From positions 1 to 43,535 of the forward strand of contig CALKCF010000008.1 of assembly GCA_938083505.1 (NCBI GenBank): a stretch of 43,535 nucleotides of DNA, given 5' to 3'. This DNA comes from an uncultured archaeon. GTDB lineage: Archaea; Thermoproteota; Nitrososphaeria_A; Caldarchaeales; Wolframiiraptoraceae. The position numbers and the translations under genes are program-made. This document shows positions 5,857 to 16,517 of this stretch, one piece after another (position 1 is the stretch's first letter; the number at the start of each line of letters is the position of its first letter). The notes beneath the pieces are model-generated. The model searched no databases. It was not told where the DNA came from and saw only the letters and a program-made list of their open reading frames with translations.

Positions 5857-7407
5857 TTAGCAGGCCTCTATAGTGCTCGGAGGCTTCGACGTCGTGGCAT
5901 AAACTACCATCGTCACGTTACCTACCTCATTCACTATTCTTTTTGAGATTCTGTCGAGTAAATCCATGTCTGCTCTATACCAGTCTGCCGTCATTCCGTC
6001 CTCACTTTCAACAGCCCTCACTATGACCACATAACCCTCAGCCCTAGCGTCGCCCATCACACCCGTCCATGAGCTGTCTGTTACTACTGCGAACGCCTGC
6101 CAAACCTTATCGTAGACCCCGGCATTCTTAAACTCCTCCTCGACTATTGCGTTAGCCTCTCTGCATATCCTGAGCTTTTCTTCTGTGACCTCACCGACTA
6201 TTCTGACGGCCAGTCCAGGTCCTGGGAATGGATGACGCGAAACTATCTCTTCAGGTATACCAAGCCTCTTAGCAACCTCCCTAACTTCATCCTTGTAAAG
6301 GTCCTTAAGGGGCTCCACGAGTTTCAACCTTAAACTCGCAGGAAGGCCTGCCACGTTGTGATGCGTTTTGATAAGAGCAGAGCCAGAGCCTGCAGAACCG
6401 CTCTCTATTCTGTCTGGATAAATCGTTCCTTGAGCCAGCCAGCGGACTTTCGGTATCTTCGCAGCCTCTTCTTCAAAAATCTTTGCGAACTCCTCACCAA
6501 TTATTTTCCTTTTCTCTTCCGGGTCTTTTACACCTTTAAGCCTTGACAAGAACCTTTCCGCTGCCTTCACGAAGATGAGGTTGGCTATGCCCATGCGCCT
6601 CAATGTAGCAACAACCTGCTCAGGTTCATCCTTCCTCATCAAACCATGGTCTACAAATATACAGTAGAGTCTCTTGTCAAGTACCCTGTTAAGTAGGACG
6701 GCTGTCGTGACGGAATCGACCCCTCCGCTAACTGCGCAGATCACGGACTCGTCTGGGGGGATTGTCGCGGCTATTTCCCTACTCAACTCCTCGACTCTAT
6801 CCACGGGTTTCCAATCACACCTAAAGCCGCAAACATCCACTAAGAACCTCTTAAGTATACTACTACCCATTTGGGTGTGTTTGACTTCAGGATGGAATTG
6901 GACTCCATAAATTGGTCTTTCGGCATGCTTCATGGCGGCAACCGCGCCTCTCTCAGTAAGCGCCAAGACCTTAAAGCCAGGCGGATGCCTCACCACGGAA
7001 TCCATGTGGCTCATCCATCCGATGAACTGATCAGGAACGTCCATTAACAGAACGTCCCGCTCAACGACCATGACACACGTCCTGCCGTACTCCATGATTG
7101 TCCCGCGCTTAAGCTCTCCATTAAAAGCCATCGCGATGAGTTGATGGCCATAACATATACCGAGCATAGGCACCTGAACGTTCAATAAATCCTCAGCCGA
7201 AAACTTTGGAGCGTTGGGCTCGTCGACGCTCCGAGGGGCTCCCGACAGGATGATGCCAAGTGTCTCATAATCTTCAGAAAAAATTTCCTCGGGAAACTTC
7301 GTGAAGGGCACTATTTCAGAGTACACGCCAAGCTCCCTGCACCTTCTGGCTATCAGATGTGTATACTGTCCGCCGAAGTCCACTATAGCTACCCTCTGTG
7401 ACCTCAT
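5857..7407 (-). CDS. guaA: GMP synthase (glutamine-hydrolysing), single chain
   Basis: It converts XMP to GMP using ATP and glutamine. The N-terminal class I glutamine amidotransferase domain has the nucleophile in GICYGHQ (C85) and the His/Glu pair in FHPEVKH (H172, E174). The ATP-pyrophosphatase domain has the PP-loop SGGVDS (226-231), and the dimerisation domain closes with the family's KPPSTIE ending. The length of 516 residues is normal for the fused form. Many euryarchaea split this enzyme into two genes (guaAA and guaAB), so the fusion is a lineage marker. The gene stands alone, with tRNA-Val(UAC) divergent upstream. Confidence 0.97.
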   Translation of the reverse strand: MRSQRVAIVDFGGQYTHLIARRCRELGVYSEIVPFTKFPEEIFSEDYETLGIILSGAPRSVDEPNAPKFSAEDLLNVQVPMLGICYGHQLIAMAFNGELKRGTIMEYGRTCVMVVERDVLLMDVPDQFIGWMSHMDSVVRHPPGFKVLALTERGAVAAMKHAERPIYGVQFHPEVKHTQMGSSILKRFLVDVCGFRCDWKPVDRVEELSREIAATIPPDESVICAVSGGVDSVTTAVLLNRVLDKRLYCIFVDHGLMRKDEPEQVVATLRRMGIANLIFVKAAERFLSRLKGVKDPEEKRKIIGEEFAKIFEEEAAKIPKVRWLAQGTIYPDRIESGSAGSGSALIKTHHNVAGLPASLRLKLVEPLKDLYKDEVREVAKRLGIPEEIVSRHPFPGPGLAVRIVGEVTEEKLRICREANAIVEEEFKNAGVYDKVWQAFAVVTDSSWTGVMGDARAEGYVVIVRAVESEDGMTADWYRADMDLLDRISKRIVNEVGNVTMVVYATTSKPPSTIEAC

Positions 7408-7575: not shown

Positions 7576-7648
7576 GGGCCGGTGGTCTAGCGGCTATGAC
7601 GCTGCCCTTACGAGGCAGAGGTCGTGGGTTCGAGTCCCACCCGGCCCA
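7576..7648 (+). tRNA. tRNA-Val (UAC)
   Basis: A complete 73-nt cloverleaf: acceptor GGGCCGG/CCGGCCC, D arm GTC…GAC, anticodon arm CTGCC-CTTACGA-GGCAG giving anticodon UAC, and T arm GTGGG-TTCGAGT-CCCAC, with discriminator A. There is no intron, unlike the other two valine tRNAs in this window. The two bases after the discriminator are CC, followed by T, so CCA is not encoded. Confidence 0.95.
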
Positions 7649-7655
7649 CCTAAAA

Positions 7656-7675
7656 TTTTTAAAATAATTTTTTTA
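7656..7675 (+). terminator. T-tract terminator after tRNA-Val
   Basis: Two T runs (five, then seven) within 30 bases downstream of the tRNA match the oligo-T terminators used by archaeal RNA polymerase. Confidence 0.5.
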
Positions 7676-7712
7676 AGTAAGTAAATGCATTAACTCTATA
7701 AATTATAACGAG

Positions 7713-9071
7713 GTGATATTTATTCCAGCGGTTAGTGGAGGTTCACAAAGCATAAATGAGAAAGTCGAGCTTATACACATAAAAGATCTGAAACCCGCAG
7801 TCTATATGGACATTAGAGAAGTGCTGTCGTCTTATACAAAAATATTAAGCACTGATATGGTGAACCGCCCGGTGGTTGTGGATGAAAACACTAAAGTGGT
7901 TCTTGAGGGGTATGAAACCTTCTATGCATTGGATCTTCTTTCAGTTGAAAAAATCCCCGTCATAAAAGTCAACCTATATAACATAAAGCTAATATCCCTG
8001 CAACCTAACCTAAACCCGGTAACTGCAAAGTCCATAATAGATGCTGGAGTCAAGGGGCCTAAACTGCCACCAAAAAGTTTCAAAGTTTTAGTTGAAATCC
8101 CTGAGATCAATGTTTCCTTAAAGGATTTGCTTCCATCGCCGGAAAAGGACGTTCGTGTTCTAAAGGTTTACAATAGCGTTTTGGAGCTACTCTATAAGGG
8201 CTGGCCTACGCCCCTGGTTAAGCTGAATTCTTTGTCAAACGATAAACGAAGTGTTTGGGCTAAGCTTGAAGGGTATAACCCGCTTAGCAACAGCGTAAAG
8301 GACAGGATAGGCTGGTCAATGCTCATGGACGCTTTAGATCGAGGAGAGTTAATGGAGATACTCTACGAGGCCACATCCACAAACACTGGAATAGCCCTAA
8401 CATCCATAGCTAACACCTTAGGGATTAAAGCTAAGCTTTTCATACCAAAGACTATTCAGAAGGTAAGCGACATCTACCTAAAGGTTTTAGGCGCAGAGAT
8501 TGTTAGACTTCCTGTAGGGTTGACGGTTGAGGCTATAGACCAAGTGAACTCCGAGGCAAAAGAACATAAGGCTATGCATCTGAATCAGTTTGAAAACGAC
8601 GCCAACCTTAAGGTCCACTTGAAATACACAGCCAAAGAGCTCGATGAGCAGCTTCTAAGTGTAGGATTAAAGCCCACTGTTATAATTGGTGGTTTAGGCA
8701 CCTCAGGCCACATGAGTGCCATATCTATCTACTTCAAGAACAAGTATGGAGATAGTGTGAAGATTGTTGGGGTTCAACCAGCACCAAACGAGGTGATCCC
8801 CGGAATAAGGAGAATAGAGACGGGAATGAAATGGTTCCATTGGACATCCTTCGACGAGATTGTAGATGTTACACAAAGGGAGGCAGTAGAAGCTGCCATC
8901 AACATTGCAAGGAGTGAGGGGCTACTAATAGGGTTAAGTGCCGGTGCCGTTGTACATGCATTCACCAAAATCTCACGTGACGGGGGTGTATACGTCCTAG
9001 TATTTCCCGACACAGGCTATAAGTACGCGGAACAATTTGAAAACTACTTTGCAAATCTTCAAAAAAAGTAG
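7713..9071 (+). CDS. O-phosphoserine sulfhydrylase with N-terminal SerK/ParB-like domain
   Basis: Residues about 150-452 form a PLP-dependent cysteine synthase of the O-phosphoserine type known from Aeropyrum pernix: PLP lysine in SNSVKDR (K196), TSTNTG substrate loop (221-226), HLNQFENDAN, GLGTSGHMSA phosphate-binding region, and the IPGIRRIETG motif whose arginine recognises phosphoserine. It would make cysteine from O-phosphoserine and sulfide or a sulfur carrier. Residues about 15-140 resemble the ParB/sulfiredoxin-fold serine kinase SerK, ending in the family-like LPPKSF…VSLKDLL segment. However, the DGHHR-like active-site motif reads EGYET and the catalytic glutamate position appears to be a valine, so kinase activity is doubtful. 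The GTG start is uncertain. A MoeB-like E1 gene follows 15 bases later. Confidence 0.88.
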   Translation: MIFIPAVSGGSQSINEKVELIHIKDLKPAVYMDIREVLSSYTKILSTDMVNRPVVVDENTKVVLEGYETFYALDLLSVEKIPVIKVNLYNIKLISLQPNLNPVTAKSIIDAGVKGPKLPPKSFKVLVEIPEINVSLKDLLPSPEKDVRVLKVYNSVLELLYKGWPTPLVKLNSLSNDKRSVWAKLEGYNPLSNSVKDRIGWSMLMDALDRGELMEILYEATSTNTGIALTSIANTLGIKAKLFIPKTIQKVSDIYLKVLGAEIVRLPVGLTVEAIDQVNSEAKEHKAMHLNQFENDANLKVHLKYTAKELDEQLLSVGLKPTVIIGGLGTSGHMSAISIYFKNKYGDSVKIVGVQPAPNEVIPGIRRIETGMKWFHWTSFDEIVDVTQREAVEAAINIARSEGLLIGLSAGAVVHAFTKISRDGGVYVLVFPDTGYKYAEQFENYFANLQKK

Positions 9072-9086
9072 AAGGGGAAAAGTGCA

Positions 9087-10133
9087 TTGAACGTTGATAT
9101 ACCCTTCGACCCCCAAATCTTTTATAGCAGACAAATAGTTCTCCGAGAGCTTGGACCACAAGGACAGAAAAAGCTAAAACAGTCCAGGGTTGCGATCATC
9201 GGAGTAGGCGGGCTCGGCAGCGTATCAGCACTTTACCTTGCCTTGGCAGGCGTGGGCTTCTTGAGGCTCATAGATCAAGACACTGTCGAGTTACATAACT
9301 TACATCGACAAGTTTTATATTCTCTGGAAAACCTTCGATATCCTAAGGTTGAGGCAGCCGCAAAAAGGATAAGGGACCTAAATCCGAACGTGGAAGTGGA
9401 GCCTATTCCGGAAAACATCCGAACAGACAATGTCGAAGAGTTGATTAAGGATGTGGACGTGGTTGTTGACGGATTGGACAACATAAGGACACGATACCTT
9501 CTCAATCGTGCGTGCGCTAAACATCGCATACCATACGTTTTCGGAGCGGCAATAGGTTTGGAGGGGAACCTATCAGTTTTTGCTCCACCTGAAACACCAT
9601 GTCTCGAATGTGTGTTCCCAAATTTCAAAGACGAAGAATTGCCGACATGTGACGTTAGAGGCGTACTTGGTTCAACAACAGGGATAATCGGCACCTTACA
9701 AGCCATGGAAACTATTAAGCTTCTAGCAAACATCGGCGAAACCTTGAAAGGTAAATTGCTTGTTTGCGATTTCGAAAACATGTATTTCGTCAAGTTAGAC
9801 ATCCCCAAGAGGTCGGACTGTCCTGTTTGTCAAGGTGTGACGACTGAAAAGTCACACATCAGTGAGCGACTGGCATGGTTATGCGGCCATAAAACCGTCA
9901 ACATTAATCCTTCCCGCCCTATGCTTCTTGATCTAGAAAGAATCTATGAAAAACTAGAAAAACGCTTTAAAATACTACTAAAGTCCTCCTTAGCCATAGT
10001 GTTTGAATTTTACGGTGGTGTTGAGGTTAGCTTATTCAAAAATGGAAGGATGCTCATCAAAAACGTTGAGGATGAAGAAAATGCATTAAAAATCTACAAA
10101 AGCATAATGAACGAATTGATAGTAGAGGTTTAA
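9087..10133 (+). CDS. MoeB/ThiF/HesA-family E1-like adenylyltransferase
   Basis: This enzyme adenylates the C-terminal glycine of a ubiquitin-like sulfur carrier (ThiS/MoaD/CysO type). The Rossmann motif GVGGLGS is at 39-45, the ATP site D-Q-D-T-V-E-L-H-N-L-H-R-Q at 63-75, the catalytic cysteine at C188 (TCDVRGVLGSTTG), and the zinc cysteines are CLEC (172, 175) and CPVC (245, 248). Residues about 255-348 form an extra C-terminal domain beyond the usual ~250-residue core. The start is TTG at 9087. It lies 15 bases after the sulfhydrylase, so the pair may deliver sulfur for cysteine as CysO-CysM-MoeZ do in mycobacteria. No sulfur carrier gene is in the window. Confidence 0.88.
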   Translation: MNVDIPFDPQIFYSRQIVLRELGPQGQKKLKQSRVAIIGVGGLGSVSALYLALAGVGFLRLIDQDTVELHNLHRQVLYSLENLRYPKVEAAAKRIRDLNPNVEVEPIPENIRTDNVEELIKDVDVVVDGLDNIRTRYLLNRACAKHRIPYVFGAAIGLEGNLSVFAPPETPCLECVFPNFKDEELPTCDVRGVLGSTTGIIGTLQAMETIKLLANIGETLKGKLLVCDFENMYFVKLDIPKRSDCPVCQGVTTEKSHISERLAWLCGHKTVNINPSRPMLLDLERIYEKLEKRFKILLKSSLAIVFEFYGGVEVSLFKNGRMLIKNVEDEENALKIYKSIMNELIVEV

Positions 10134-10747
10134 CGCATTTTCTGAACAATTTTTAAGGTAGTTTTTGTTTAATTCTTACCTTAGTAATGAAAGAATTTCC
10201 AATCCTAAAACGCGGGTTAATGGAGTACCCTCCAACTACCTTCCTTGTATGAAAACATTCATGACGGCTTTTCTCTTTCGTTTACTTTGCCGACCAAAAT
10301 TCCGCAAGCTTCAATTTAAACCTAAACATACCGTCTAAAGCTTCTTCTTAATCTTCAAGATCATAAACTACCTCCAAACCCCAAACATGATGTACCAATT
10401 TTAATTTAACGTTGCTGTGTCTGCACAAATATCTGCAGCTTGTTCTATAAATTCTATCAAATCATTTGCTTTCTTAGGTTATGCTTGTCGGCAATCACGA
10501 CGGACATTATACATAATGTATTAAAAAATGAAGACAGTCCGGTATTTTCTTGAAATAATCACGAACTCCTTGCTGATACCGACTGCTGTTGAACGTGTGC
10601 AAGTTTTCAACGAATTTCTTGCTAATTTTTCAGAAAATGTCATACTCTTTTCCTATATTAAATAATCGATGTGTGGCGCACGCCCTCCTCCCCCTGTGCG
10701 CGTATAATGTAAAACAGACGTGTTAGTTGTCGAGTTTATCAATACGT
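10134..10747. other. 614-bp gap without an intact gene
   Basis: No convincing reading frame. The sequence is AT-rich with short interrupted frames on both strands, most suggestive on the minus strand between about 10200 and 10640, which could be a decayed gene. No inverted terminal repeats or recognisable transposase motif were found. A small GC-rich hairpin near 10676-10701 is listed separately. Confidence 0.3.
10676..10701. terminator. GC hairpin between convergent genes
   Basis: GCGCAC and GTGCGC form a 6-bp stem around a pyrimidine-rich loop. It sits about 50 bp beyond the stop of the minus-strand GH130 gene. It may act in termination or mRNA 3'-end stability, but no clear T tract follows on that strand. 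Confidence 0.25.
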
Positions 10748-12670
10748 TTAGAGTTCTGCGAATATTTCGTTTATTGTTGCTGTGGCCACACACACATATG
10801 TGTCGGCAGCGCCATAGTATAGGAATATTCTATTATCTCGAACAACAGCTCCACATGGGAAGACGACATTTTTTACGTATCCCTCTCTTTCGTAAGATGC
10901 TTCTGGAGACAGAAGCGTCGTGGTTGTTCTGGCTATAACCTTCTCCGGTTTCTTAAGGTCTAAAAGTGCTGCGCCAACATGATAGAAGTTATCGTGGGAG
11001 ACACCATGATAGAAGATTAACCAACCCTTTTCTGTCCTGATTGGCGGTGTAGCCAAACCCACTTTCTTCCCATCCCACATTCCAACCCTTGATGCAAGCA
11101 AGCTGTGTGAGACAAGCATCGTCGGATCAACGGTCTCCAATGAGTCAATGTAATCGTAGGTTACGTTTATGCCGCCAGCTCTGTGTATGTAGAAATACTT
11201 CCCGTTTATGGGCTCTGGTATGATGCATGCATTTTTATCGTCTATGCCAGGCGGAGAGATTATCTTGGGCCTTGACCACTTCCAGTCCCGATTAAGGAAG
11301 TCATTTATCTTGATGGAAGTCACAGCAACCTTTGGCGGGTTAACGTTGTCGTAGGCAGTATAGAACATGTAAAGCTTATCTCCGACTTTCACGATTCTTG
11401 GGTCTTCGCATCCTGAATGGCCTGGTGTAGCCTTTCTCTCAAAAGGCTCCCTCGGAACATAAATTGGCTCATCTAAAATTTCTTCAATTGTGAAACCGTC
11501 GCTGGTTATTGCCAGACCTATCGTGGAAGTTTTATCCTGCGAGAGGGCTCTAAAGAGTATATAGATCTGGTCTTCAAGTTCTATAGCAGCCGGATTGAAG
11601 GTTGCGATGCTCCGCCACTCAAAGCGCCTGTCAGGCGAGATTATAGGGTTTTTAGCATACCTTTTAAATACCGATTTCAGACCACTTTTGAGAATTCTCT
11701 TGATGTGGCTCAATCTTGCTGTGGCTAAGCAACAGACGGTGTCGGCAGCCCCATAATAAAGCCTTATCCAGTCCTTATGCCTTATGACCGAGGATGGGAA
11801 GACAACCTTTGGGATGTGACCGTAAACCTCGTACACCTCTTCGGGAACCATAAAGGGATAATGGGTTTTGGCTATAATTCTACGCGGATCATCAAGGTCA
11901 AGGAGCAGAGCTTCAACACCGAAAACTCTTTCCGTGGGCGATTCTGAAAAATAGTTTTGGATGTAAGAGTATATGAGGAGCCAGCCCTCTTCTACTTCTA
12001 TAGGTGGAGCACCGACTTCAATATGATCCCTCGGCGATCGTCTAGGATCGGGTCTCAACGTCCAGCTCATAAATTCCCTATACCACTCCTCCATCTCAGT
12101 GTACCAGAGCGATGGGTCATCGCCAAGTTGGGCTACGCATATGTAGGCCGGCGGCCTGTCTGTGTGAACTGTCAGAATCGCCGTAAGCTTTCCGTTTATT
12201 CGTTTTGGGAAAAGCGCCATAGCCTTCGCGTTAAAAGGTGTGACAAGATATTTTCCCTCAATCTTTTCTAGATCCCTGCTCACGGCAACTCCAACCCTTA
12301 TCCCTTCGGCCTTAGGTGGCAGGCTGGATATCGCCGTGTAGAAAATGTAGTACTTTCCATCTATGTACGTCACTCGAGGATCCTCGCATCCGAATCTTTC
12401 CCATTCCATTTCCGGGTATATGAAGCATCGTCGTTCACCGAAGTGCACACCGTCTTTGCTTACGGCAATCCCTATTGAGCTGAAGCTTGACCCTTGCTTC
12501 TTCAGGAGGTCAGAAGAAGAAATTGCACGGTAAAGCATATAATACTTGCCGCCTCTCTGAATAACCGCCGGATTGAATGTGGCGTATGCCTCCCACGAGT
12601 TCTCTCTTACAGGAAGCAGGATCGGATTCTCATCACTACGACTAATCATAATGATTGCCTTAAATTTCAT
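10748..12670 (-). CDS. tandem double-domain GH130 protein (glycoside phosphorylase family)
   Basis: GH130 enzymes are five-bladed beta-propellers that phosphorolyse or hydrolyse beta-mannosides and related sugars. This 640-residue protein is two GH130 domains end to end. Domain 1 (about 10-310) has TFNPAVI, the GCEDPRV motif with the proposed catalytic Asp, and YYIFYTA. Domain 2 (about 330-640) repeats ATFNPAAI, GCEDPRI and LYMFYTAYDN, and both end in the LYYGAAD motif. A single domain is normally about 300-350 residues, so this is a fusion or internal duplication. The partner gene at 12686-13750 encodes a third copy most like domain 2. No signal peptide is seen, so cytoplasmic action is likely. 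The exact substrate is unknown. Confidence 0.88.
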   Translation of the reverse strand: MKFKAIIMISRSDENPILLPVRENSWEAYATFNPAVIQRGGKYYMLYRAISSSDLLKKQGSSFSSIGIAVSKDGVHFGERRCFIYPEMEWERFGCEDPRVTYIDGKYYIFYTAISSLPPKAEGIRVGVAVSRDLEKIEGKYLVTPFNAKAMALFPKRINGKLTAILTVHTDRPPAYICVAQLGDDPSLWYTEMEEWYREFMSWTLRPDPRRSPRDHIEVGAPPIEVEEGWLLIYSYIQNYFSESPTERVFGVEALLLDLDDPRRIIAKTHYPFMVPEEVYEVYGHIPKVVFPSSVIRHKDWIRLYYGAADTVCCLATARLSHIKRILKSGLKSVFKRYAKNPIISPDRRFEWRSIATFNPAAIELEDQIYILFRALSQDKTSTIGLAITSDGFTIEEILDEPIYVPREPFERKATPGHSGCEDPRIVKVGDKLYMFYTAYDNVNPPKVAVTSIKINDFLNRDWKWSRPKIISPPGIDDKNACIIPEPINGKYFYIHRAGGINVTYDYIDSLETVDPTMLVSHSLLASRVGMWDGKKVGLATPPIRTEKGWLIFYHGVSHDNFYHVGAALLDLKKPEKVIARTTTTLLSPEASYEREGYVKNVVFPCGAVVRDNRIFLYYGAADTYVCVATATINEIFAEL

Positions 12671-12685
12671 TAACTATTCAAACAT

Positions 12686-13750
12686 TTAAACATAATTTCT
12701 CCGCTCCCTCAGTAAAAGTTCAACAAGCTCTGTTATATTTCCTCTTGCAACGCAAACGTAGTTATCTGCAGCTCCATAGTAAACCAGTAGATCGTCATCT
12801 TTTACAACGGCACCAGTTACGTATATCACGCCAGGCTTGAATCCTTCATGCTCGTATTTCTCCGTAGGCTCCAGCACAGGATACTTACTTACAGCTATGA
12901 TTTGTCTTGGATCCTGCAGATCCAAAAGCATCATGCCCACTTTATATTTGCCGGGCTCCTTGGTATCTGCCGCATGGTAGAGGAGAAACCATCCCTCCGC
13001 GGTTTCTAGGGGTGGAGCTGCCACCCCCCTCACATACCCTTCCCAGAAATGTCTCCAAAGGATGCGGCCTTCATCGAAGATGCTCCGTATATAAAAGCCC
13101 TCAGCAACCTCAAGGGAGTCGAGAAACTCAATCTGTAAAGTCGGTGACAGACTATGTAGGATCGCATACTTACCCTTGAACTTTTTAGGAAACAAAACCC
13201 AGTTTTTGTGAGATTCCCCTGGAGGTGAAATAATCCTAGGCTTAGCCCAACGCCACCTTTTATCGAGGAAGTCCTCAACGCTTATTGAGGTTAAAGCCAC
13301 TCCTAGATTTAAACCGTCATAAGCCGCATACAGCATATAAAGCATACCTTCGTCCTCTACGTGAACAATTCTGGGATCCTCGGCGCCTATAAACGAGCCG
13401 CCTGAGGCGCTCATCAACGGACAAAACATGTTTTCAACCCTATGCTCGTAAACAGGATAGTCGAGTCGTTTGATAATTTCAAAACCATCAACGCTCGAAG
13501 CATAACCTAATCGTGAAACCAGATCATCACCGATAGCCCTATATAAAAGGTGAACCCTACCATCAACATAGACCGCTCCAGGATTAAACGTCTGTCTGCT
13601 CTCCCACCAGAAACCCTCTCTAGGTGAAATTATAGGGTTAAAAGAATACTTCTTAAAGATCTGCAAAAAACCAGCGGAACTACATCCAAGCATACTGTCC
13701 CTACAAACATTAATTAAAACAAAAGGTAAATATAAACCGATATTTGTCAT
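12686..13750 (-). CDS. GH130 family glycoside phosphorylase/hydrolase
   Basis: A single GH130 domain of 354 residues: QTFNPGAV (substrate pocket), RAIGDDLVSRLGYA, GAEDPRIV with the proposed catalytic Asp, MLYAAYDG, PPGESHKN, PPLETAEGWFLLYHAAD, and the terminal LLVYYGAADNYVCVA. The N-terminal ~25 residues before FKKYSFNPIISP look non-conserved, so translation may start at the internal Met near residue 20. It lies 15 bases upstream of the tandem GH130 gene, so the two form an operon, probably acting on an oligosaccharide or on intracellular mannan-like polymer or solute. No transporter is adjacent. Confidence 0.88.
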   Translation of the reverse strand: MTNIGLYLPFVLINVCRDSMLGCSSAGFLQIFKKYSFNPIISPREGFWWESRQTFNPGAVYVDGRVHLLYRAIGDDLVSRLGYASSVDGFEIIKRLDYPVYEHRVENMFCPLMSASGGSFIGAEDPRIVHVEDEGMLYMLYAAYDGLNLGVALTSISVEDFLDKRWRWAKPRIISPPGESHKNWVLFPKKFKGKYAILHSLSPTLQIEFLDSLEVAEGFYIRSIFDEGRILWRHFWEGYVRGVAAPPLETAEGWFLLYHAADTKEPGKYKVGMMLLDLQDPRQIIAVSKYPVLEPTEKYEHEGFKPGVIYVTGAVVKDDDLLVYYGAADNYVCVARGNITELVELLLRERRNYV

Positions 13751-13893
13751 TTATAATTTTAGCAAAATTACGGACAAGAGTATTTAGGATGTAGAGGGGC
13801 ACTCAAATCTACTATCTAACATTCTGCATTTTTCAGCTGATCCTTTGTTTATAGTGTTAACCTTTGAAGAAGCTCCCATGAAACGTTAAGACT

Positions 13894-14310
13894 TTACTTT
13901 AAAATTTCATCAAAAATTTCTTCGGCTCTTCTTAGGTTTAACGTGAGGGTGTCATCGACAAACTCCATGTTTTTAATTTTTGAACTCATCGTGCATAAGC
14001 TTGATTTCTCTAACAACATTTTTTGAGACTTCTATCACAGCAATATTCTCCAAAAAGGTGTGAAGGGTGCAAAAAGAGCATTTAAACGGGCATCCTATGC
14101 TGGTGATTATCGGCACGTGACTGATGCCTTGAAACATATATTTCTCTATAGAAAGTAGGTTAAGACTTGGAACTGGAGGTTATACCTCTAATGTCCTCTA
14201 GGCAGATCTCATGATCTATTTGTATTAATAAGTTCCTTGAAGATCTCCTTGGACAACAACGCTTATGCTTCTGCATTCGCCCAAGAGGACTTCCTCCAAG
14301 AAGAGGCACT
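13894..14310 (-). pseudogene. decayed radical SAM (B12-binding type) gene
   Basis: Three pieces of one radical SAM protein can be read on the minus strand in shifted frames. At about 14068-14093 is the cluster motif GCPFKCSFC, preceded by an SLNLLSIEKYMF…VPIITS segment typical of B12-binding radical SAM proteins. In a different frame at about 13897-13968 is MEFVDDTLTLNLRRAEEIF, the conserved strand after the cluster, ending with a stop at 13894-13896. A frameshift separates them, stops interrupt the upstream part, and the whole C-terminal half is missing. It is a remnant, not a working gene. The rest of the 13751-14449 gap holds nothing else I can support. Confidence 0.75.
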
Positions 14311-14449
14311 TCAAATCCTAATCATATATGGAGGCATAGATGAGTTAGTTTCAGTAGAGTTATGCTCTGAAACCTTGCTTACAGCTCTAGCTTTATCTTT
14401 ATAGAGTTAAATAGTGGTTTAAACACTTTCATTATCTTAGTGAAATTAT

Positions 14450-14830
14450 ATGGTTGAAAAAAAGCGACCTAGATTTATAATGTGTTTCTGCACTGGTGAA
14501 TGCCCCGGATTTGCAAAGTTGGAATTATGGAAGTTTATCAACTTTGTTAGAAAAGAACTTGACGTAGAATATGCCATCATCCATCCACAACTATGTGTTG
14601 ATGACGGGGACCGCTTTTTGAAGGATTATCTTAAAGCAGGTGATAATAACGTAACTTATATTATTGGTGGATGCGATCCTAAAATGCAGAGGAAGATGTT
14701 CAAGGATGCTTTTGCCGAGAAAGGTTTAGAATTTGATAAACAGGTAATTTCGCTGGATTTGAGAAACTTGGAAACTTCAGAGGCCATGAAGAAAGTTGAA
14801 GAAGTTGTTAACAAGTTGATGGCACAGTAA
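14450..14830 (+). CDS. HdrA N-terminal-domain-like cysteine protein
   Basis: A 126-residue protein resembling the N-terminal domain of heterodisulfide reductase subunit A standing alone. Cysteines are in MCFCTGECPG (C12, C14, C18), in HPQLC (C49) and in IIGGCDPKMQ (C75), followed by helices and the conserved-looking SLDLRN strand. In HdrA this domain binds an Fe-S cluster and helps electrons pass to or from partner subunits; the flavin domain is absent here. The next gene, starting at the base after its stop codon, encodes a ferredoxin, so the pair likely forms a small electron-transfer unit. Partner enzyme unknown. Confidence 0.6.
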   Translation: MVEKKRPRFIMCFCTGECPGFAKLELWKFINFVRKELDVEYAIIHPQLCVDDGDRFLKDYLKAGDNNVTYIIGGCDPKMQRKMFKDAFAEKGLEFDKQVISLDLRNLETSEAMKKVEEVVNKLMAQ

Positions 14831-15169
14831 ATGGAGGAGGAGTCCTTGGCTTCTGAGAGTTCTCTAAATAATTCGGCGAAAAGTGAAAAACGTATCTTAA
14901 TTCCACGTGAAGAAATTCCATGGTTTCCTACAATTGATTATGAGAAATGCACTGGATGCCTTACATGTGTTAGGATCGATAAAGAGACCGGTCATGACGT
15001 CTTCGAGGTTGAGGGAAATACACCTCGTCCGGTGGTAAAGAATCCTTTTTCATGTGTTGTTGGATGCCAAACATGCGCAAAAATGTGTCCAAACAATGCA
15101 ATAACATTCCCATCAATAGATGAGTTAAGGAAGATTCTGAAAGAATTAAGACTGAAGTACTCTCAATAA
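14831..15169 (+). CDS. ferredoxin-like protein with an incomplete eight-cysteine pattern
   Basis: A 112-residue 2x[4Fe-4S]-type ferredoxin with a ~35-residue polar N-terminal extension. Motif 1 is CTGCLTC (C40, C43, C46) but lacks the usual fourth cysteine; motif 2 is CVVGCQTCAKMCP (C75, C79, C82, C86). Seven cysteines would support one [4Fe-4S] cluster and one [3Fe-4S] or otherwise ligated cluster. ATG 14831 follows the upstream stop directly, implying coupled translation with the HdrA-N-like gene. Probable role: electron carrier subunit of an oxidoreductase. The redox partner cannot be told from this region. Confidence 0.8.
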   Translation: MEEESLASESSLNNSAKSEKRILIPREEIPWFPTIDYEKCTGCLTCVRIDKETGHDVFEVEGNTPRPVVKNPFSCVVGCQTCAKMCPNNAITFPSIDELRKILKELRLKYSQ

Positions 15170-15295
15170 ATTTATACTCCTTAACTTATATAAAGTTTTA
15201 GAAATTAAGAGTAAGAAAAATATGACAGGCTCCTTGGCTCAAAAAGGCATAGGGTTTCTATAATGTCAATATTAATAAGTCATAATACCAGTCGC

Positions 15296-15712
15296 TTATA
15301 GTTTTGCTTCTTTAATTATCATTTCTGCTATTTTCTTTACGTCCGCCTCATAAATGTCGAGGGTTGGCATCTTCTGCAGATATTTTGATACGTCAATTTC
15401 GTAGTCTATTCTTTTTTCAGCCTTCTCCAAGACTTTTGAAGCGCACCTCTTTCCACACCCGTTTATGACAATATTCTTTTTTGCTTTTTCCGCAATTTCC
15501 AAGTGCGGCTTTGAGCCAGCTGCAATAGCTACTATGCAGCACATCCTACCCTTATCTAATTTGGTGAGTAGAACGCCCGCAGCATGCCCTATCTGTCCGA
15601 CATTGGCTGCTCCATCACATATCCAAATCATGTTTTCATGCTCGGCAACCTCATAGCATAATGGAAGAATTTTGGGCTGAAACGTCACACCTATTTCTCC
15701 TTTCTTTGACAT
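15296..15712 (-). CDS. DGC-domain putative zinc-binding protein
   Basis: A 138-residue protein of the DGC domain family, annotated as putative zinc-binding. The defining ICDGAANVGQIGHAAG segment (about 31-46) is followed by CCIVAIAAG and VINGCGKRCASKVLE, giving conserved cysteines at the expected places. It lies between the ferredoxin pair and a broken TauE/SafE permease gene, suggesting a link with sulfur or metal metabolism. That link is inference; the function of the family is not established. Confidence 0.8.
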   Translation of the reverse strand: MSKKGEIGVTFQPKILPLCYEVAEHENMIWICDGAANVGQIGHAAGVLLTKLDKGRMCCIVAIAAGSKPHLEIAEKAKKNIVINGCGKRCASKVLEKAEKRIDYEIDVSKYLQKMPTLDIYEADVKKIAEMIIKEAKL

Positions 15713-15771
15713 TTATATATTTCACCTTCCTAAGCTATTCCTTCAATAACTAAATAAAATTAAAGACTTAA

Positions 15772-16517
15772 TTCGTAATAATTTTAATACTCTTTGTTTT
15801 TGCAGGAATCCTAGGAGGATTCTTGGGAACTGGTAGATGTGTTGTAATGCTTCTAGCCTTATACTTTCTCTCCAACTATAACTTGCCCGTAATCATCGAT
15901 ACGACAATCACTACCATCATTATAACAGCAGCATCAGGTTCGGTAGCTCACATAAAGATAAGAAATGTAGACTATAGAACTGCAACACTCATAACCATAT
16001 CAGGTGTGTTGCTCGGTTCGATTACTTTTCAATATCTAGTGGAACAATTGTAATTGCTAAAGATCATCTTAGGAGCGGCATTCCTCTACGTTCCTCTAAG
16101 GATGATATATAAAGGTTCTAGAAGAAGTGTGGAAGCAAAAACTGGAAATATCGTTCCTGGAGGCGCTTTAGCTAAGTCATCAATAGGGTTCGTTATAGGG
16201 GTATTAACGGGTATCATTAGTCTAGGAGGTGGTTATGCGTTAGTTCTTTCGATGATATGCCTTCTCGGAGCACCTGTTAAGATAACCATAGGAACGTCTT
16301 TAGCTTCATTCATAAGCATGACGCTCATTTCGGGAGCTTTCAAGATATACCAAGGATTGGTAGATGTTATTGTTGCATTATCGCTTGGAGCCGGAATGGC
16401 AATAGGAGCACAAATAGGTTCAAGACTTGTACCAAGGGTTCCAGCTTCATATATAAGATTGTCTTCATATACGTTTCTCTAAAGTTTATCTTAGGTGTTT
16501 TCGGAATAAACATATAA
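15772..16517 (+). pseudogene. TauE/SafE-family permease, broken by a stop and a frameshift
   Basis: One continuous reading frame encodes the two halves of a TauE/SafE membrane protein (sulfite/organosulfonate exporter family) but is cut by an in-frame TAA at 16051-16053. The first half has AGILGGFLGTG and a late AHIKIRNVDY segment; the second repeats the family's GVLTGIISLGGGYALV…GAPVKITIGTSLAS signature. Near the 3' end the frame hits TAA at 16480-16482, while the next frame continues with YVSLKFILGVFGINI to 16517. No ATG, GTG or TTG precedes the first conserved residues. Two separate half-proteins are conceivable but unlikely. Confidence 0.75.

Follow-up and report, generated by a model that had tools for sequence, protein, structure and literature searches.

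Organization of the locus and the catalytic domain

The window, namely the whole stretch of 43,535 nucleotides that was analysed, is the entire contig C8 of a 1.15-Mb genome. As listed in Table 1, a gene for a two-domain protein lies behind guaA and a tRNA-Val gene and is followed by a gene for a ThiF/MoeB-like enzyme. All of the motifs quoted in a preliminary description of this DNA, SNSVKDR (with K196), TSTNTG, GTSGHMSA, IPGIRRIETG, EGYET and LPPKS...LKDLL, are present in this one open reading frame. Judged by its sequence, the frame encodes an Aeropyrum-type O-phosphoserine sulfhydrylase (OPSS), for which sulfhydrylase activity is predicted.

Table 1. Coordinates of the features in the window and of the triple fusions found in other genomes.
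Feature	Position	Strand	Evidence or remark
guaA, native anchor gene	5857..7407	-	84-89% identical to five genus mates
tRNA-Val (TAC)	7576..7650	+	kept beside guaA in five genus mates; apparently acquired segment starts behind it
Fusion gene of predicted dead SerK and OPSS, 452 aa, GTG start	7713..9071	+	ORF with all quoted motifs
SerK-derived N-terminal domain (residues ~15-145), predicted to be catalytically dead	7755..8147	+	profiles, model, catalytic-residue alignment
Ala29-Val30 replacing SerK His-Glu pair (TkSerK His29-Glu30)	7797..7802	+	alignment
EGYET (65-69) replacing SerK DGHHR	7905..7919	+	alignment
LPPKSFKVLV (118-127) where SerK has LPPKTSRHxx; Pro and Lys retained, His replaced by Val125	8064..8093	+	alignment
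OPSS catalytic domain (PALP fold)	8160..9068	+	PF00291 E 2.9e-45; 1wkv E 2.7e-60
K196, PLP lysine (ApOPSS Lys127)	8298..8300	+	alignment
R366, counterpart of ApOPSS Arg297 (phosphoserine recognition)	8808..8810	+	IPGIRR motif
ThiF/MoeB-like E1 enzyme, 15 bp downstream of OPSS	9087..10133	+	PF00899 E 2.4e-81
Triple fusion (L062/L144)	L062:3548-5287
Triple fusion	L064:3968-5698
Triple fusion	L066:3560-5308
Triple fusion	L142:1495-3255
Triple fusion	L145:835-2808

The best PDB match of the catalytic part (residues 152-444) is Aeropyrum CysO/OPSS, 1wkv, which is closer than CysM in sequence (E 2.7e-60 vs 6.8e-36) and closer than CysK/CysM in structure when the full-length model is compared (E 3e-31 vs 1e-22). 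K196, the PLP lysine in SxKDR, is invariant among the aligned OPSSs. Arg297 of the Aeropyrum enzyme (ApOPSS), to which R366 corresponds, recognises phosphoserine, as cited in PMC5120207. PALP is the sole Pfam domain in the protein, and the helix-turn-helix of the ParB/Noc CTPase DNA clamp is absent from it. The true start of the protein is uncertain, because the models show residues 1-15 as disordered, with pLDDT below 50, the GTG at 7713 sits within a ribosome-binding-like string, GAGGTGAT, and homologues start near residue 14-17.

Relationship of the N-terminal domain to SerK

Residues 1-145 alone gave no Pfam or PDB match by single-sequence search, and profiles were therefore needed to see the resemblance to the free serine kinase SerK. 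A search for relatives returned full-length fused homologues together with stand-alone proteins of ~145 aa carrying intact PHE, DGHHR and PPKTSRH-type motifs. A SerK profile built from 14 stand-alone SerKs recovers Thermococcus SerK (TkSerK, 5x0b, 3e-20), Pyrococcus SerK and SbnI (2e-13), and matches the N-domain of the window protein at E 1.9e-16. Alignment of the fused N-domains with SerK by hhalign covered 131 columns and reached 99.1% (E 9.6e-19). The N-domain was also modelled with AlphaFold from an input alignment without any SerK; in Foldseek, the nine best PDB matches of this model were TkSerK, Pyrococcus SerK and SbnI (TMq 0.64-0.73 at a probability of 1.00), with Noc/ParB and sulfiredoxin ranking after them, and comparison of the model with these structures indicated that both SerK lobes are kept. 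The preliminary description had proposed a degenerate SerK/ParB-like domain on the OPSS, and profile, profile-profile and structure comparison agree with this well: with a probability of about 0.92, the N-domain is a SerK paralogue that has lost its kinase residues and is fused to OPSS.

Loss of the catalytic residues

The catalytic residues of 22 SerKs were compared with those of 21 full-length OPSS-linked domains. The HE pair, three residues of D-G-x-H-R (G, H and R), and a Tyr, Val, Lys and Ala in the second half are invariant in all 22 SerKs, and a later His occurs in each aligned SerK row that extends to its position. Among the invariant residues, the N-domain of the window protein retains only the Gly and the Ala (Ala111); Leu88, Ser95 and Ala105 stand at the Tyr, Val and Lys positions, and Val125 at that of the later His. 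The valine suspected earlier at the position of the catalytic glutamate is Val30, aligned to Glu30 of TkSerK, for which the PDB entries include E30A and E30Q mutants. It had also been claimed that EGYET takes the place of DGHHR, and this is the case. H and R of GxHR are missing in 21 of 21 OPSS-linked domains, the HE pair occurs in none of them, and a G-x-E motif replaces D-G-x-H-R in 17. With its SerK kinase residues replaced, the N-domain is predicted to be catalytically dead.

The dead domains group together in a single clade (100/100), and all full-length copies have one origin. Between close pairs, dN/dS is 0.09-0.23 for the dead domain vs 0.06-0.13 for the OPSS part. The dead domain is under purifying selection among close relatives and is therefore an exapted domain rather than junk.

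Spread and shrinkage of the N-terminal domain

The survey for the same fusion covered 398 genomes of the phylum. An OPSS-type match was obtained in 135 of these, and the long N-domain is present in 19 of the 135 and is found across several families. The size of the N-domain in archaeal OPSSs is graded, from ~145 residues through ~80 to none, the second lobe being missing in most OPSSs and the whole N-domain in some, while the OPSS catalytic residues remain unchanged. The profile of the short N-domains, made from relatives of the Aeropyrum protein, matches SerK at 98.2% (E 5.5e-14, 71 columns, linker excluded), and the shorter N-domains of other archaeal OPSSs are thus read from their profiles as shrunken, SerK-derived versions of the dead domain. 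Aeropyrum 1wkv is reached by the short-N-domain profile at E 1.8 only and is not among the 50 matches listed for the N-domain model in the PDB structure search; the full-length profile extends back to residue 43 of the 1wkv chain. The SerK origin of the Aeropyrum N-domain is accordingly drawn from the short-domain profile of its relatives and the full-length profile, its own remnant being too short to reveal this by itself. Descent from a decayed SerK is proposed for the N-domain of archaeal OPSSs.

Triple fusions and separate SerK genes

SerK, dead SerK and OPSS follow one another in a single chain in five distinct proteins, 577-598 aa long and each from a separate archaeal MAG. Against the SerK model, the first domain reaches 168-179 bits where measured, and the second 38-56 bits. 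The first domain of all five (L062, L064, L066, L142, L145) keeps HEE, DGEHR and PPKT(S/T)RH, and from these motifs it looks like an intact SerK. The SbnI match reads DGVHR and is thus also without the first His of DGHHR, so the DGEHR of the triple fusions need not be inactive. The tree of OPSS domains places the window protein and the triple-fusion clade as sisters (97/97), and together they lie inside a single long-form clade (98/95). The window protein may either have descended from a triple fusion or have split off before the kinase joined. A related two-domain protein at L063:3899-5308, in a genome that carries a separate SerK, differs from the L145 triple fusion by a clean in-frame deletion of 120 residues which removes exactly the live kinase. 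It had been expected that genomes with a triple fusion would have no other SerK; this was contradicted in four of the five, where another SerK match was found (one of them truncated), and only G316 has the fused copy alone.

Regarding the two-domain proteins, an intact stand-alone SerK is encoded in the same genome as the window (G000:C2:102232-102642), as is a serine hydroxymethyltransferase. The expectation of a separate SerK in every two-domain genome was not borne out: an intact-looking copy is present in 13 of 17, it is broken in one, and none was found in the remaining three (G010, G058, G065). The broken copy, a stand-alone SerK interrupted by stops, lies at G093:C82:6223-6645. In many genomes, a stand-alone serK directly precedes the OPSS gene or is transcribed divergently from it.

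Genomic neighbourhood and acquisition of the gene

The possibility that the contig is a contaminant was dismissed, as guaA is 84-89% identical to that of five genus mates and the guaA-tRNA-Val arrangement is kept in all five. No OPSS was found in these genus mates. The nearest relatives of the window OPSS belong to distant families, and the ThiF of the window is 60-66% identical to ThiF of G316, G323 and G072, where a long or triple OPSS is likewise present, vs 38-47% to that of the genus mates. OPSS and ThiF look horizontally acquired beside tRNA-Val, ThiF probably together with OPSS. An attachment-site repeat of the tRNA-Val 3' end was sought, and only the tRNA itself and the other tRNA of the window were found; GC content did not set the acquired segment apart.

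In at least four of the five genus mates, an intact CysK has a cupin, a JAMM protease and a radical SAM gene as neighbours. In the genome of the window, CysK is a pseudogene with frameshifts and in-frame stops (G000:C3 ~199970-200950; L056 5968-6950, minus strand). Its cupin-like neighbour (L056 7074-8073), intact in the genus mates, is also a pseudogene, and the JAB/JAMM protease and radical SAM genes are still open. The simplest reading is a single transfer that brought the OPSS-ThiF pair to a site beside tRNA-Val, after which the native CysK was lost, an order of events that we infer.

Several further observations were made around the OPSS genes. The window segment at ~7651-15800, which spans from tRNA-Val to a TauE remnant and holds OPSS, ThiF, two GH130 mannoside phosphorylases, a ferredoxin and a DGC-domain protein, was not found at the corresponding place in genus mate G005. 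At 15823-16482, a TauE/SafE-like exporter is split into two ORFs and is likely a pseudogene; a genus mate has one intact gene of this kind, encoding 261 aa (L216 10505-11290). A small HTH protein, starting like MKPPC or PCE and perhaps a dedicated regulator, adjoins OPSS in many genomes (L047, L052, L061, L062, L064, L065, L066, L072, L074, L142, L145, L146); none was seen beside the OPSS gene of the window.

In the mycobacterial CysM/sulfur-carrier/Mec+ route, a thiocarboxylated carrier, not free sulfide, feeds an O-phosphoserine-using synthase. At L170 2865-7023 (G072:C28), the gene order is ThiF, SerA-like dehydrogenase, dead-SerK-OPSS, JAB protease and HTH regulator, which recalls the mycobacterial route; delivery of sulfur by a carrier through ThiF might be imagined by analogy, and the cluster is suggestive only. 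Separately, a PALP-family enzyme (63334-64239) and, immediately after it, a ThiS-type sulfur carrier (64399-64623) are encoded at G000:C4:63334-64623, and this pair could represent a further carrier-linked sulfur pathway.

Possible role of the dead domain

It is proposed that a SerK copy joined OPSS long ago, lost all of its kinase residues and has been retained in a non-catalytic function. The C-terminal PLP domain would turn O-phosphoserine into cysteine, the O-phosphoserine being supplied by the stand-alone SerK of the same genome and perhaps also by the 3-phosphoglycerate route. Our first choice of role, held tentatively and at somewhat less than even odds, is that of a docking or scaffold partner that places live SerK beside OPSS. 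Docking is suggested by the adjacency of serK and OPSS genes, by the triple fusions, and by the separate intact-looking SerK in most of the two-domain genomes. In its fuller form, the dead SerK would be a docking or allosteric partner of live SerK in an OPSS-SerK assembly line, with the partner fused in some MAGs and O-phosphoserine handed over directly; we regard this as possible, though less likely than not. As a sole role, docking is disfavoured by the three genomes in which no SerK was found and by shrinkage of the N-domain elsewhere. The two-domain genome with a broken SerK, and the additional SerK matches in four of the five triple-fusion genomes, also count against docking. Because the N-domain shrinks to ~80 residues or none, a structural remnant of a kinase-synthase fusion, which now would do no more than stabilise the fold, the dimer or the active-site entrance of OPSS, fits as well as docking, and the unchanged OPSS catalytic residues along this graded series are in its favour; persistence of the long form under purifying selection in several families and the live SerK adjacent or fused in many genomes make it doubtful. 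A substrate-binding or regulatory role, as put forward in the preliminary description, may apply to the domain. It is less likely, though a serious alternative, that the domain serves as a ligand sensor, with allosteric control of OPSS through binding of a nucleotide, serine, phosphoserine or cysteine. Retention of the SerK fold with both lobes, purifying selection on the N-domain copies and the new G-x-E motif would suit a sensor, and ParB-fold proteins often bind nucleotide without kinase chemistry (PMC12704722), but the SerK-invariant residues lining the active site are replaced and the second lobe is gone in most OPSSs.

Two other readings are far less probable than these. The fold is right and so is the partner enzyme for an active bifunctional serine kinase/sulfhydrylase with unusual catalytic residues, yet the His-Glu pair, H and R of GxHR, and Tyr, Lys and His of the second half have all been replaced, and a separate intact SerK is encoded in the genome, which renders such activity of the window protein highly improbable. 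The channelled two-step enzyme of the preliminary description consequently falls for the window protein, whose kinase residues are lost, while its architecture is met with in the sister triple fusions with their intact-looking SerK. Barely credible is an ordinary Aeropyrum-type N-domain unrelated to SerK: the full model does match 1wkv over 443 alignment columns, but the N-domain alone matches SerK structures first, and the short N-domains themselves match the SerK profile. The preliminary description had set an Aeropyrum-type N-domain against a SerK-like one, and the domain matches both; the ordinary short OPSS N-domain is itself SerK-derived, and the either/or is therefore a false choice.

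The two enzymes of the Ser-Sep-Cys route are linked by fold, gene adjacency and outright fusion, and a pseudokinase on the enzyme that uses the product of that kinase is unusual in small-molecule metabolism. Serine-to-cysteine conversion may run on one chain in the triple fusions, as their domain content suggests, and these offer one purifiable protein for direct tests of phosphoserine channelling. What the analysis adds is a SerK origin for OPSS N-domains generally, an intact SerK at another place in this genome, the triple fusions, and the replacement of one gene by another in this lineage.

Comparison with known systems

Fusions of the ParB-type fold to other domains are known, with SerK-like members noted among them (PMC12704722); the main text of that paper contains no mention of PALP, pyridoxal or sulfhydrylase. 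Neither the dead-SerK-OPSS nor the triple fusion was found described in open PMC papers. The closest counterpart of the catalytic part, Aeropyrum pernix OPSS (CysO, 1wkv), shares the PLP lysine, the Arg297 counterpart and the GTSGH loop, and also has an N-terminal domain ahead of the catalytic domain, as reflected in the structural match described above. In contrast to the window protein, where this domain spans ~130-145 aa with both lobes, the Aeropyrum N-domain has ~80 aa and its SerK origin is invisible from its own sequence.

SerK itself (Thermococcus TK0378, PDB 5x0b; PMC5120207) resembles the N-domain in its ParB/Srx-type fold, the order of its motifs, the PPK segment and an LKDLL-like end. 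It differs in that the window protein has other residues in place of Glu30, D-G-x-H-R and Tyr, Lys and His of the second half, and is fused to OPSS whereas SerK is free. The same kinase fold is present in SbnI, the free serine kinase of Staphylococcus. SbnI acts before SbnA and is thereby paired in its pathway with a phosphoserine-using PLP enzyme. SbnI is, however, a separate and active protein, whereas the kinase copy in the window is predicted to be inactive and is fused to its partner.
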